From Candidatus Nitrosocosmicus arcticus (GTDB lineage: Archaea > Thermoproteota > Nitrososphaeria > Nitrososphaerales > Nitrososphaeraceae): 64,000 nucleotides of DNA. The notes under the pieces were generated by a model, which saw only the letters and a list, made by a program, of their open reading frames with translations, made no database searches and was not told the DNA's origin. The position numbers and the translations under genes were made by a program. The stretch's first letter is position 1. Each line of letters opens with the position of its first letter. The stretch spans positions 62,001-126,000 of the forward strand of contig NZ_ML675586.1 of NCBI RefSeq assembly GCF_007826885.1. The letters run 5' to 3'. This document shows, one piece after another, positions 22,171 to 27,871 of this stretch.

Positions 22171-23208
22171 CTACTGGCGAATTGCCAAAGCCCATGGATG
22201 CTGAAGTTTATACTCCTTTGGCCAAGGCATTTCTAAACTCTTCCAAGAGAGTCCCGAATCTTTCGAAACAAAGATTCCCCGATTATTTAAGCAATAAAAT
22301 TCATCTTCAACATGTGGAGTGGAATCGAGAATCGAAATAAACGTTCCTTTTGACTCAGGCAAACCATTACGAACTGATTCCCATTTTGAACTTTGATCAT
22401 CTTCCTCTTCAAAAGAACGTCTATAAATGAAGGATTCTAGATCTGAAATATCATGAGATTTCCAAGCATTATTTGCTGCTGATACTATCATATTTTTAGG
22501 ATTACCGGAATTTAATGCAATACTAAACAGATATGTGTGATCTTTTAATCCCTCATTGATGTTATTCCAGGTATTTCCATAATCTTTACTTTCAAAATAG
22601 CCGTCTCCGGCAGCAGAATAGAGTATTCCCGGGGCTTTATTGTTAGTTATTAGTTTATGAGTATCATAAGGACCACTTTCTACCCTGTCCATCCAGGTCT
22701 TTCCACCGTCAAAAGTTCTGATTAGTGCTCCTGCTTCTATCGCAGCAAATACACAATTTTCATTACTTGTATCTGGCTCAATCCAACGTACATGGTGAGT
22801 GGAAGGTCGAGGAGGAAATGACCACGTAGTATGTGAAGGTAACTCATTAAAATTTTCTATTTTTTCCCATATTGCCCCCCCATCAATTGAGGAAAGAATC
22901 GTACTAGGCTCGGTTCCAACAAATACTCTTCCAAATCCAGATTTTCCCCTCTCAATCGCACTGACTGAAACAGAAGTTATATGGGAACCAATATTGTCCA
23001 AGAAGGTTTTCTCCCATGTTAAACCATTATTATCGGTTTTCCAAAGACCAGAGTTAAATGTTCCGCAATATGCCCTACTATAATTGTGAGGATCAATAGC
23101 AAGAGAATTAATATTATATTGTTTCAAGTGCTCATGGATTTTCCATCCATCTATTGTAGAATCCAAAACCAAAAGCGAATTTTGTAAGGCTGCCAAAATA
23201 GTAGTCAT
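22171..23208 (-). CDS. BNR/Asp-box beta-propeller protein
   Basis: The protein has 345 residues without a signal peptide. At least five Asp-box motifs (S/T-x-D-x-G-x-T/S-W) are visible: TDNNGLTW, SIDGGAIW, TFDGGKTW, SKDYGNTW and SKDSGLSW. They are spaced ~40-65 residues apart, as in six- or seven-bladed propellers of the sialidase/VPS10 type. No sialidase catalytic Arg triad can be assigned, so a binding or scaffold role is more likely than hydrolysis. The start MTTILAALQNSLLVL is an ATG. The protein is probably cytosolic, unlike the YVTN protein at 33186. Confidence 0.75.
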   Translation of the reverse strand: MTTILAALQNSLLVLDSTIDGWKIHEHLKQYNINSLAIDPHNYSRAYCGTFNSGLWKTDNNGLTWEKTFLDNIGSHITSVSVSAIERGKSGFGRVFVGTEPSTILSSIDGGAIWEKIENFNELPSHTTWSFPPRPSTHHVRWIEPDTSNENCVFAAIEAGALIRTFDGGKTWMDRVESGPYDTHKLITNNKAPGILYSAAGDGYFESKDYGNTWNNINEGLKDHTYLFSIALNSGNPKNMIVSAANNAWKSHDISDLESFIYRRSFEEEDDQSSKWESVRNGLPESKGTFISILDSTPHVEDEFYCLNNRGIFVSKDSGLSWKSLEMPWPKEYKLQHPWALAIRQ

Positions 23209-23330
23209 TATAATGCCATACTATTGAATGAAATTATTTAAGTAATCTCACGAAAATTATCATGTCGTCCCTTTTTTGATATAGAAACGTTAGATTTCTA
23301 TTTAACCGTGATAAATGAGTCAGGTTTATC

Positions 23331-23370
23331 GCGGGCCGTGGGGATACGGTTCAAGGTTGGATATAATCTC
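23331..23370 (+). repeat. Dispersed repeat, tail B
   Basis: Lead GCGGGC, centre CGTGGGGAT, tail ACGGTTCAAGGTTGGATATA then ATC. It lies 79 bp upstream of the small gene at 23449 on the same strand. Confidence 0.8.
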
Positions 23371-23448
23371 AGCAAAAGTGATGACTTCTCGGGTTCAAGA
23401 AATTTAAAGACATAGATAGTTATACCTTTTTTGTATAAAAATTCCTAT

Positions 23449-23607
23449 ATGTCATCGATTAATGACAGCGGAGAAAATGAATTTGCATATGAGGAATCAA
23501 ATATAGTAGGAATATCCGAAAATACTCCAGAAGAAAAGAACAAAAGAATATTAAAATCAATCAAAAAGGAAATCTTAGAAAAAGAAGAGGATAAACCTAA
23601 CGTATAA
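23449..23607 (+). CDS. Small acidic/helical protein (52 residues)
   Basis: The frame runs ATG to TAA and encodes MSSINDSGENEFAYEE, then NIVGISENTPEEKN and a charged helical end (SIKKEILEKEEDK). The near-copy at 21998 with a one-base frameshift shows that the sequence has been under duplication, and agreement in the first 28 residues with mostly conservative changes supports a real protein. There is no signal peptide and no known family. An A/T-rich TTTTTTGTATAAAA about 20 bp upstream could be a TATA element. Confidence 0.5.
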   Translation: MSSINDSGENEFAYEESNIVGISENTPEEKNKRILKSIKKEILEKEEDKPNV

Positions 23608-23704
23608 TATTGTAAAATGAGTGAAAAATAACATTGAGAATCTGGAGTTATTTTCCTGTTTGTATGAGTTAATTGCATAAAATAAACATCATCAATTAGG
23701 CTTG

Positions 23705-23776
23705 ATGCTTGGTTCAGATGACAGTGCTGGTGACATAGTTAACGAAATTTTTAAGAAGGTAACTGATAATCAATAG
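23705..23776 (+). CDS. Possible 23-residue peptide
   Basis: A short frame ATG to TAG encodes MLGSDDSAGDIVNEIFKKVT plus three residues. It has an amphipathic helix-like end and lies 98 bp after the small gene at 23449. There is no further support, so it may equally be the remnant of a longer gene. Confidence 0.2.
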   Translation: MLGSDDSAGDIVNEIFKKVTDNQ

Positions 23777-23828
23777 ATTTGTATTCGCAGTTCAAGATTT
23801 TTCTAAATGTTAAATCACTAATTAAACA

Positions 23829-23990
23829 CATCCGTTGGATACGATTCAAGTAGATAATTCAAGGTTAATTTTACACGAGCGTCTGCATAAATTCCACTCC
23901 ATCCTGAGTCATAACATCATTGCTAGATAAGCGATCAATGAGTTTGGGCGTGTGGGGATTAAGTTCCTTGTGGTAGAGGGATTCTATTGC
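23829..23990 (+). repeat. Composite dispersed repeat: decayed tail B, linker, tail A
   Basis: A worn tail-B half (CATCCGTTGGATACGATTCAA) is followed by a linker with ACACGAG, GAGTCATAACATCATT and AGTTTGGGCG. It runs into TGTGGGGAT and TAAGTTCCTTGTGGTAG. The order matches the composites at 15418 and 42567. It fills most of the spacer before 24083. Confidence 0.7.
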
Positions 23991-24082
23991 AACTATAAAA
24001 TGAAGGACAAGAAAAAGTAAACTGGTAAAAAAGGTAAGTTACTCTTTTTATCTCTCTTAACCATAACTCATCTACATACCAA

Positions 24083-25009
24083 TCACCGGATACATGAATT
24101 CAAATCCAAATCTCCCATCCACATAAGATTCCCAAGTTGAGAATCTGTCGTCCTGTTTTCAGCTAATATAATTTCAGAAATATTGTCATCAGAAAAGGTT
24201 TCTGTCAAACTACTAAATTCATTGTTGCTGCGGCTGTCAATTGAGAGGTTACCTAGAGTATCAGTTATTTTAAATACCGGACGCAATCCCCCTCCTTCGC
24301 CAAATAAATCCCTATTGGGCAACGAAAAACCATTATTGCCGTATTTGTATAATAAAGCCTGGATATCGTTTTCTGAAGGTTGAAGTTTGCCTGTGGTTTC
24401 GGAATTCGCACACGTTTGCTTTTCTTCACCATTCGGATACCAATCATAGCTACACATTAAATCATAATCAATATTGAATGTATGTCCCAATCCCAATGTG
24501 TGCGCAAACTCATGTATCGCTGTGGAATAAACATCCTCTTGCGGTAGATCTAAGATTTGAAATCCATCAGAACACGATGTTAAAATTGTAGCCACCACAG
24601 GTTTATTAACTGCTTCTGGATGCGGAGAAGCAAATCCTAACATATCATCACAGTAGTTATAGTCTGGTGGCGTACTGACTAGTTCGAGTATTATTGTATT
24701 AGGATTTGAAGGCTGAACCGTTTCAAGATTTCCTATCTCGGATCTAACGTTGAAATTCCATGCTTGTGAATTGTTACTATATTGTTTTAGTAGGTTAGAC
24801 CACTCGTATACAGCTTCGGTTACAATATTGACATATTTTGAAGACTGATTTTGGGTACCTTCATTTACTAGGACTACAACATCAATATTGTCACTTCTCC
24901 ATTCATCAAGTGAAAGTTCGATATATTTTGCTTCATTAAAAGTAAAATTACTGGGTCGGTATTCATCGATACTAATTGATGATTTAGGCTCTGCAAAATC
25001 TATGCTGTT
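24083..25009 (-). pseudogene. Matrixin-like metalloprotease domain in frame after a stop
   Basis: This stretch of 309 codons has no internal stop and is in the same frame as the PsbP-like gene that ends at 25010. It encodes a beta/alpha region (EWRSDNIDVVVLVNEGTQN, EWSNLLKQYSNNSQAWNF) and then the zinc site HEFAHTLGLGH with a following Cys and a Met-containing turn (YDLMCSYDW), as in matrixin/archaemetzincin-like proteases. The first ATG (24643) lies inside the domain and would give an N-terminally cut protein. So either the domain is made by readthrough of the TAA, or the gene is broken. The tail has Asn/Ser-rich linker and ends LNSCIR. Confidence 0.65.
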
Positions 25010-26164
25010 TTACATTGTATCAAATATAGGAATATACTTATCATATTGTTGAGGATTAGCTATTAATGATATCCAATACATTTTATCACTAATAGGAATT
25101 GCATACATAGTTACTCGCAAAGGTACCTGTTGATTTTGATCAAATGTCTTGAATGTTGCTTTATATGTATCAAAGCCATCGATCAAATCCGAATATTTTG
25201 ATTCAACTAATTCAAATGATGGATTATCACTTTCCATTTTCAAATAATCTTCAACAAAGGTTTTAGAATCATCTCTTGTCAGAATATCATAATTTTTCGC
25301 TACACCTATTTGTAAGTATTCTTGTTGGTCGTCTAAGCCACTAATAATCGGTGACATAATTTCCAGAAGAATTGTACCTTCATTACTATCAGCACTGAAA
25401 CTAGATTCTTTAGTATAATCTATGAGTTCATAGGTTTCTGGATATGTCAAAAAATTGATACCTGTATCAGGATTAGAGTAATTTAAGAAATTTCTCCCAG
25501 GGTCTTGTCCAGGGGGAGCTGAAGGAGTAATAGGAATAGACTTTTCAATCACCTTATCGATTTTAAAAGAGTTGATAGACTGCTTTGCTATAGGAAAATA
25601 TGCATCATAGTCGGACTTTTCGCCTTGGAAATTAATAAAATAGCCTTGACTATTATTTACAACTGTCCCTATTTCATAAGCTTTAATCTCAATGTCATCA
25701 ATACCCTCATCTTCGTAAGTATAAGTATAAACTATCTCATAAGCAGGTAATCCGGACAGAAAGGAAGTATTTTGATTGACTATTTCAAAGTTTTTGGATG
25801 ACTTATAAGCATCTATTGTTTCATTCAGATATTCATCTATATCCGCATCATAGGGTATTTCATCGTAATAAATATCCATGCCATCATACCATTTATCTCG
25901 ACTATCCTCCAATGGTGAAGAAAAGCTAACAACATCTATTGCTCTGATATCTGGATTGAGTTTTGGATCTATCTTTTCCCAATTATTAGGATATTGAATT
26001 TCGATACCGTAAGTGGTATTTCTATAAGATGATATCGGAGTATTGCTGCCAAATAATTCATCTTCCTGTGCACTAATACTTTTGTTAATTAAGGTATTTG
26101 AAATAACAAAACTAAAACAAGCAAGAATGGAAATGAAGATATATAATATTTCTTTATTTTTCAT
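25010..26164 (-). CDS. Secreted protein with two PsbP-like domains, truncated by TAA
   Basis: The protein has 384 residues. A signal peptide (ILYIFISILACFSFVISNTL) is followed by PsbP-like domain 1 (RNTTYGIEIQYPNNWEKID to SINSFKID) and, after a Pro-rich linker, domain 2 (YSNPDTGINFLTYPETYELI to the stop). The TAA falls inside the closing motif of domain 2: domain 1 reads QSINSFKI, while domain 2 reads DTM-stop-NSIDF. The frame then continues into a metalloprotease domain (24083-25009). The original protein was most likely PsbP-PsbP-matrixin and extracellular. Function of the PsbP parts is unknown. Confidence 0.75.
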   Translation of the reverse strand: MKNKEILYIFISILACFSFVISNTLINKSISAQEDELFGSNTPISSYRNTTYGIEIQYPNNWEKIDPKLNPDIRAIDVVSFSSPLEDSRDKWYDGMDIYYDEIPYDADIDEYLNETIDAYKSSKNFEIVNQNTSFLSGLPAYEIVYTYTYEDEGIDDIEIKAYEIGTVVNNSQGYFINFQGEKSDYDAYFPIAKQSINSFKIDKVIEKSIPITPSAPPGQDPGRNFLNYSNPDTGINFLTYPETYELIDYTKESSFSADSNEGTILLEIMSPIISGLDDQQEYLQIGVAKNYDILTRDDSKTFVEDYLKMESDNPSFELVESKYSDLIDGFDTYKATFKTFDQNQQVPLRVTMYAIPISDKMYWISLIANPQQYDKYIPIFDTM

Positions 26165-26257
26165 TTTCGACCTTAGCGATGGACATTTTATATATTTTAC
26201 TACTTCAAAGCTTAATAGTCATTTCTAATTTATCATTTTCTATGACATTCCTAGAAT

Positions 26258-26467
26258 TTGCTAACTAGTTGCAATGGTTTAATATTCTAGCAGTTTTAGA
26301 ATCAAGTTATAAAATCCGAACCTAGTAGAGTTCTACAACATATAATAGCACAACGAATTCTTTGATCGGGTTATATATATTAGTGCTTAATATCTGATAG
26401 ATTCGGTATGACTTTTAGGAACAGTCTTGGCCCGTGGGGAAACGGTTCAAGGTTGAATATAATCCAT
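26258..26467 (+). repeat. Long dispersed repeat: P block, long lead, tail B
   Basis: It starts with the distal half of the curlin-gene upstream block (TTTGCTAACTAGTTGCAAT and ATTCTA-7 bp-TAGAAT, 26284-26302). The long lead follows (GTAGAGTTCTACAACAT ... TTAGTGCTTAATATCTGA ... GGAACAGTCTTGGCC), then CGTGGGGAA with tail B. The same order is seen at 50668-50900. It occupies the spacer between divergent genes at 26164 and 26751. Confidence 0.75.
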
Positions 26468-26750
26468 TTTCAAAAAAATTATTAACCTAACAGACAAACA
26501 TCTTTGGATTTGTAGAATGACCGGCCAGATTAAGGTCATATTGTCTGTAACCCTAGATAAGAAAAAAAACCGACATTTTCGTTGAATGTTTATCGATCTG
26601 ATGAACAATTAGCCTGTATTTCCAAATTGTAATTCAAATGAATATATTTAAGACAGTAATCTCAATTGTCCTTGGTCTCCTAACATGCAAGTATTATATT
26701 GAGGATACAAAAACAAATTTTCTTGGTGTAATATAATTTACAAATTGTCT

Positions 26751-27509
26751 ATGAAATTCATATTAGCCTTATTTGTTCTCGCACAAATAATTTCTTTCTC
26801 ATTTTTGCTTACGGGTTTTTTTTATGAATACAATGTTTCAAATACTATATCCGCCGGGATTGTCGCGTTCTTATTGTTTATCTTTTTGCTAAGCACTACA
26901 GTATCGTCAAGAATTATTTATAATTCACAAACACTTCTTTTAATGTCCCTAGTGTCGTGGTGTATTGCTGAGGCTTTCTATGGATATTATGAAGGGATCC
27001 TAGAAATAGATCCCTATCCATCCGTTGCTGATTTTTTTTATCTCGCAGGTTCCATTTTTTTTCTTCTGTTTTTCATCTTGATGAATAGGTCATACAAGAT
27101 AGAACTTGCATTTATTGCTAGTTCTATAATTACATTCTCTCTAATTGTATTCTATGTCATATATATTGCGGTATTTATTTTTGACGTCTATGATTATAGT
27201 GGTAGCATATTTGATTTGGTATTACTATTTGCATATCCCATAATTGATGTGTTAATAATGATAGGAGCAATTACATATTATTTTAGAGGAAGATCTATTT
27301 CTCTTAATAAGGATTATATTCATTGGATATTCGTATCTTTGTTTGCATTTTTCTCTCTCATTGCAGATATAACATTTGGTTATAATAATCTTGTTGATGA
27401 TTTTAGCGATGAAATATTATCGGATTTGTGCTTCAATATAGGATATTTGTTACTTGGAGTTGCTGTTTTAATTAGGATGTATTATCTAAATGCTCCCAAA
27501 AATTACTAG
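26751..27509 (+). CDS. Seven-TM sensor-like membrane protein without output domain
   Basis: From the ATG at 26751 the protein has 252 residues with about seven membrane segments. The loop YYEGILEIDPYPSVADFFYL matches the 'P-S-x-A-D-x-F-Y-L' signature of sensor modules placed at the N-terminus of archaeal and bacterial histidine kinases and diguanylate cyclases. Here the frame stops after the last segment (LIRMYYLNAPKNY), so no output domain is present. Either the module works alone or the gene lost its C-terminus. A TTG two codons earlier is an alternative start. Confidence 0.65.
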   Translation: MKFILALFVLAQIISFSFLLTGFFYEYNVSNTISAGIVAFLLFIFLLSTTVSSRIIYNSQTLLLMSLVSWCIAEAFYGYYEGILEIDPYPSVADFFYLAGSIFFLLFFILMNRSYKIELAFIASSIITFSLIVFYVIYIAVFIFDVYDYSGSIFDLVLLFAYPIIDVLIMIGAITYYFRGRSISLNKDYIHWIFVSLFAFFSLIADITFGYNNLVDDFSDEILSDLCFNIGYLLLGVAVLIRMYYLNAPKNY

Positions 27510-27827: not shown

Positions 27828-27871
27828 AATACATCCGTGGGGATACGGTTCAAGGTTGAATATAATCACAG
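27828..27871 (+). repeat. Dispersed repeat, tail B
   Basis: Lead AATACATC, centre CGTGGGGAT, tail ACGGTTCAAGGTTGAATATA then ATCACAG. It is an almost consensus copy in the 464-bp spacer between convergent genes; no other feature is visible there. Confidence 0.85.

Follow-up and report, generated by a model that had tools for sequence, protein, structure and literature searches.

The window analyzed here, a 64,000-nucleotide stretch of the Candidatus Nitrosocosmicus arcticus genome (contig NZ_ML675586.1, positions 62,001 to 126,000), carries on its minus strand a PsbP-PsbP-matrixin gene interrupted by an in-frame TAA (Table 1), and we consider it probable (roughly 0.85) that this gene is a young nonsense pseudogene that has been disabled independently in each lineage. 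We propose that Nitrosocosmicus is losing the gene for a secreted PsbP-PsbP-matrixin protein. In the lineage of the window, one T-to-A change would have converted TTA (Leu), a codon late in the second PsbP domain, to TAA; separately, what lies past the matrixin domain has no counterpart in the orthologue. The translation product would be at most a truncated secreted PsbP-like protein without the protease, and the protease half would have kept its open frame only because little time has passed since the disruption. We infer that the stop is unsuppressed and that no protease is made.

Table 1. Features of the interrupted gene, in window coordinates; L004 is the orthologue in Ca. Nitrosocosmicus sp. 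48_S62.
Feature	Coordinates	Strand	Remarks
N-terminal frame with signal-peptide-like N-terminus and two PsbP-like domains	25010..26164	-	384 aa, closed by TAA
In-frame TAA	25010..25012	-	TTA (Leu) in L004
Open continuation with metzincin (MMP-like) domain	24086..25009	-	308 codons, start-less for 122 codons
Zinc motif HEFAHTLGLGH	24482..24514	-	Met-turn Met at 24455-24457
Block homologous to L004 227-2261	24260..26302	-	90% DNA identity over 2,048 alignment columns
Codon 85	25910..25912	-	TTG in window, TAG in L004
Codon 575	24440..24442	-	TGG in window, TAG in L004
C-terminal tail after KITD, no similarity to L004	24083..24259	-	TPR repeats at this place in L004
Approximate mosaic break, ~codon 449	24760..24880	-	from third-position differences vs L004

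An earlier note, made from the sequence alone, had described a PsbP-like frame closed by this TAA and a protease domain with the motif HEFAHTLGLGH continuing in the same frame, and both descriptions were borne out, the latter with a match to an MMP-like fold as well. The note gave the open stretch after the stop as 309 codons; the stretch is indeed open, but it comprises 308 sense codons followed by a stop at 24083-24085. Given that 6.7% of minus-strand trinucleotides are stops, the chance probability of such a run is ~5e-10. The first ATG, GTG or TTG past the TAA lies 122 codons on (ATG 24643-24641, beginning MLGFASP) and only 43 codons upstream of the zinc motif, which agrees with the claim that no start precedes the middle of the protease domain and would leave the domain without its N-terminal half. 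A separate protease with its own signal peptide is therefore not readable here. Judged by eye, the stop also falls, as the note had it, at the position that corresponds to the I of SINSF in PsbP domain 1.

The N-terminal part passed the Pfam model PsbP (PF01789) in two stretches (29.4 bits against a cut-off of 23.5, E 9.6e-7). The closest Pfam model for the continuation is Peptidase_M10 (PF00413), with a weak score of 20.5 bits that is under the gathering cut-off of 24. An AlphaFold2 model of the protease domain (mean pLDDT 73) nonetheless matched MMP catalytic domains in Foldseek, with karilysin (4in9) first (E 1.9e-6), and among 10 relatives HExxHxxGxxH is invariant and the Met-turn methionine nearly so. 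The domain thus shares with matrixins and other MMP-like metzincins such as karilysin the zinc motif, the Met-turn and the predicted fold, but it falls under the Pfam cut-off and sits behind two PsbP domains, with a stop between. Another genus of the family encodes a TPR-matrixin (L007) whose matrixin domain is 36% identical and which is an intact single protein of 536 aa; it likewise has TPR repeats, but these are N-terminal, and PsbP is absent. Two further relatives of the protease domain (L133 and L136) lie in frames of 734 and 682 aa with long N-terminal extracellular repeat-like regions.

We searched 15 Nitrosocosmicus genomes for relatives of the gene, and a full-length orthologue was present in only one of them, Ca. 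Nitrosocosmicus sp. 48_S62 (G013), on JAKDMR010000330.1 (L004). Its frame crosses the site of the window's stop and encodes PsbP-PsbP, matrixin and then TPR repeats. Because L004 has a leucine codon at this site, the ancestral reading frame was continuous through PsbP-PsbP-matrixin. This is the comparison with related strains that the earlier note had suggested; of the note's three options, the result favors a recent nonsense mutation and leaves both readthrough and a sequencing error unlikely. L004 is itself broken by two TAG codons, the second just beyond the Met-turn, so that the intact frame after the stop, on which the note had laid stress, is a weaker sign of function than it had seemed. 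In the coding part, the gaps between the two copies are of 3 and 12 bases, all in-frame, and neither copy carries a frameshift. In a third genome (G010) all that is left is a 3' fragment contained in a 73-aa ORF (L003), and no matrixin match was found in the remaining 12. The TPR end of L004 has no DNA match anywhere in the window's genome. Lesions at different sites in L004, the remnant in G010 and the differing C-terminal end together point to gene decay in several lineages, a reading that rests on one full orthologue for comparison.

These features resemble those of prokaryotic nonsense pseudogenes, which show a single-base change from sense to stop, an otherwise readable frame, lesions that are not shared among relatives, and a patchy presence. 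The window case differs in being very young and free of frameshifts, with stops rather than indels in both lineages. That three stops have accumulated across two copies, yet no frameshift, counts against decay; about 5% of random substitutions in the window gene would make a stop, however, so that a young pseudogene could readily gain a few of them before any frameshift.

The alignment with L004 is a mosaic. Third-position differences amount to 9% upstream of a break near codon 449 and 35% downstream of it, and placing a break there gains 28.4 log-likelihood units, against a maximum of 9.2 among 1000 permutations. The upstream, younger tract has dS 0.17 and dN/dS 0.30 (0.45 in PsbP domain 1), and the downstream, older tract has dS 0.89 and dN/dS 0.09. 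The two lineages thus had the 5' part and ~140 bases upstream of the gene in common at a later time than the 3' part, for which recombination is the simplest explanation; a chimeric MAG contig is a less likely alternative. Since the gene is a mosaic, the low dN/dS of 0.10 over the whole continuation mainly reflects older constraint that preceded the disruption. In the part of the young tract just past the stop, which spans 63 codons only, the ratio is 0.19 (95% interval 0.07-0.48), still below 1.

This pattern bears directly on stop-codon readthrough, in which a fraction of ribosomes would continue beyond the TAA and yield small quantities of the full PsbP-PsbP-protease. The open continuation, its dN/dS of 0.10 and the absence of frameshifts are what readthrough would leave, and bacterial in-frame stops with dN/dS below 1 have been reported: Belinky et al. 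2021 (PMC7918605) described in-frame stops under purifying selection, for which the key criterion is a stop at the same position in orthologues. The window gene shares the downstream dN/dS below 1 but not the shared position, since the stop site is TTA in L004, which has its own stops elsewhere, and there is hence no recoding site to conserve. The low ratio, moreover, comes mostly from the old part of the mosaic. Nothing that would support suppression was found: PylS gave no match over the cut-off in the 15 Nitrosocosmicus genomes, the ~43 tRNA loci of the window's own genome, to the extent that they were readable (intron-bearing loci partly by eye), include no UUA or CUA anticodon, RNA structure downstream of the stop does not exceed chance (z = 0.00 over 123 nt), and the interval 23000-27500 matches no Rfam family. 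TAA, TAG and TGA all terminate ORFs normally. Across 540 kb of two Nitrosocosmicus genomes the window locus is the only interrupted frame whose continuation lacks a start, every other unshadowed open-stop-open case having a start codon within 25 codons, so that no comparable frames lie nearby. We accordingly regard readthrough as very unlikely. A variant of it, in which stops at codons that differ between species are tolerated and partly read through, keeping the dosage of a secreted protease low in Nitrosocosmicus, seems to us more doubtful again.

Two candidate decoding mechanisms were considered and rejected. Pyrrolysine or amber reassignment is contradicted by the many ORFs that end in TAG and by the PylS matches, none of which reaches the cut-off in any of the 15 congeners. 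An intron-bearing tRNA that ARAGORN reports as 'SeC (tca)' is not a suppressor, as its spliced loop, CTTCTAA, reads by eye as Arg-UCU. Separately, we observed a 63-base tRNA-like sequence (L112:160-222, on G000:C2) with acceptor, D and T arms and no anticodon arm, which may be what remains of a tRNA or else one piece of a split or permuted tRNA.

About as improbable as readthrough is a base-call or assembly error, by which the true codon would be TTA and the gene intact up to its altered C-terminus. The stop and the leucine codon of L004 are indeed one base apart. The genome used here (2,644,860 bases in 22 contigs, 98.28% complete) is, however, probably that of Ca. N. arcticus strain Kfb, which has 22 scaffolds and 98% completeness and whose assembly combined deep Illumina sequencing with IonTorrent reads; a substitution error would then be improbable, and an error in the window would leave unexplained why L004, assembled independently, is also disabled, at other sites. 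The least credible reading is that both halves are functional genes, one for the PsbP-PsbP protein and the other for a protease with a start of its own: stand-alone secreted matrixins of ~230 aa, each with a signal peptide, do occur in another genus of the family, but they are just ~25% identical, translation from MLGFASP would give a protein with neither a signal peptide nor the domain's N-terminal half, and the single full orthologue is continuous across the site. Close orthologues encoded as two separate genes, which the earlier note had named as the finding that would speak against its own description of a single split gene, were not found.

Secreted PsbP genes have decayed elsewhere too, not only at the window locus. 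A secreted PsbP paralogue (L031 and L032, compared with L043) is intact in G004, is interrupted by a single in-frame TAG in G012, and in G005 carries a frameshift plus a TAG. The stop marks in many family-wide PsbP matches were also considered as signs of decay and set aside, since match ends and frame lengths suggest that most of them simply mark where a one-domain gene normally ends.

The surroundings of the gene contain a clustered intergenic repeat of ~43 bp, AGTTTGGGCGCGTGGGGATACGGTTCAAGGTTGAATATAATCT, which also occurs with a second type of tail. The window holds 18 copies between 5150 and 60900 (e.g., 23950-23973, 26433-26464 and 27836-27867), with further clusters at G004:C1:180-340 kb, G003:C1:540-620 kb and G002:C1:1130-1190 kb, and zero copies in 200 kb of contig C1. 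Each cluster keeps one chromosomal orientation (24/24, 50/50, 26/26 and 12/12) regardless of the strand of neighboring genes. No recombinase signature was found near the repeat, and no Rfam match in the region tested (23000-27500 only). Partial copies of this repeat family flank the split gene (23833-23994 and 26256-26467), and similarity to L004 starts at 26302, where a different dispersed sub-repeat (26258-26302) ends. Repeat copies on both sides together with a similarity edge at a sub-repeat end suggest that the gene may have been moved or exchanged as a unit. The repeat has no bearing on the stop codon.

The locus most probably represents ordinary recent gene loss. It cautions against taking an open frame with a low dN/dS after a stop as a demonstration of readthrough when the gene is recombinant and its older segment accounts for the low ratio. 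A PsbP-PsbP-matrixin-TPR architecture is also put on record for Nitrosocosmicus, disabled in both genomes that have it.
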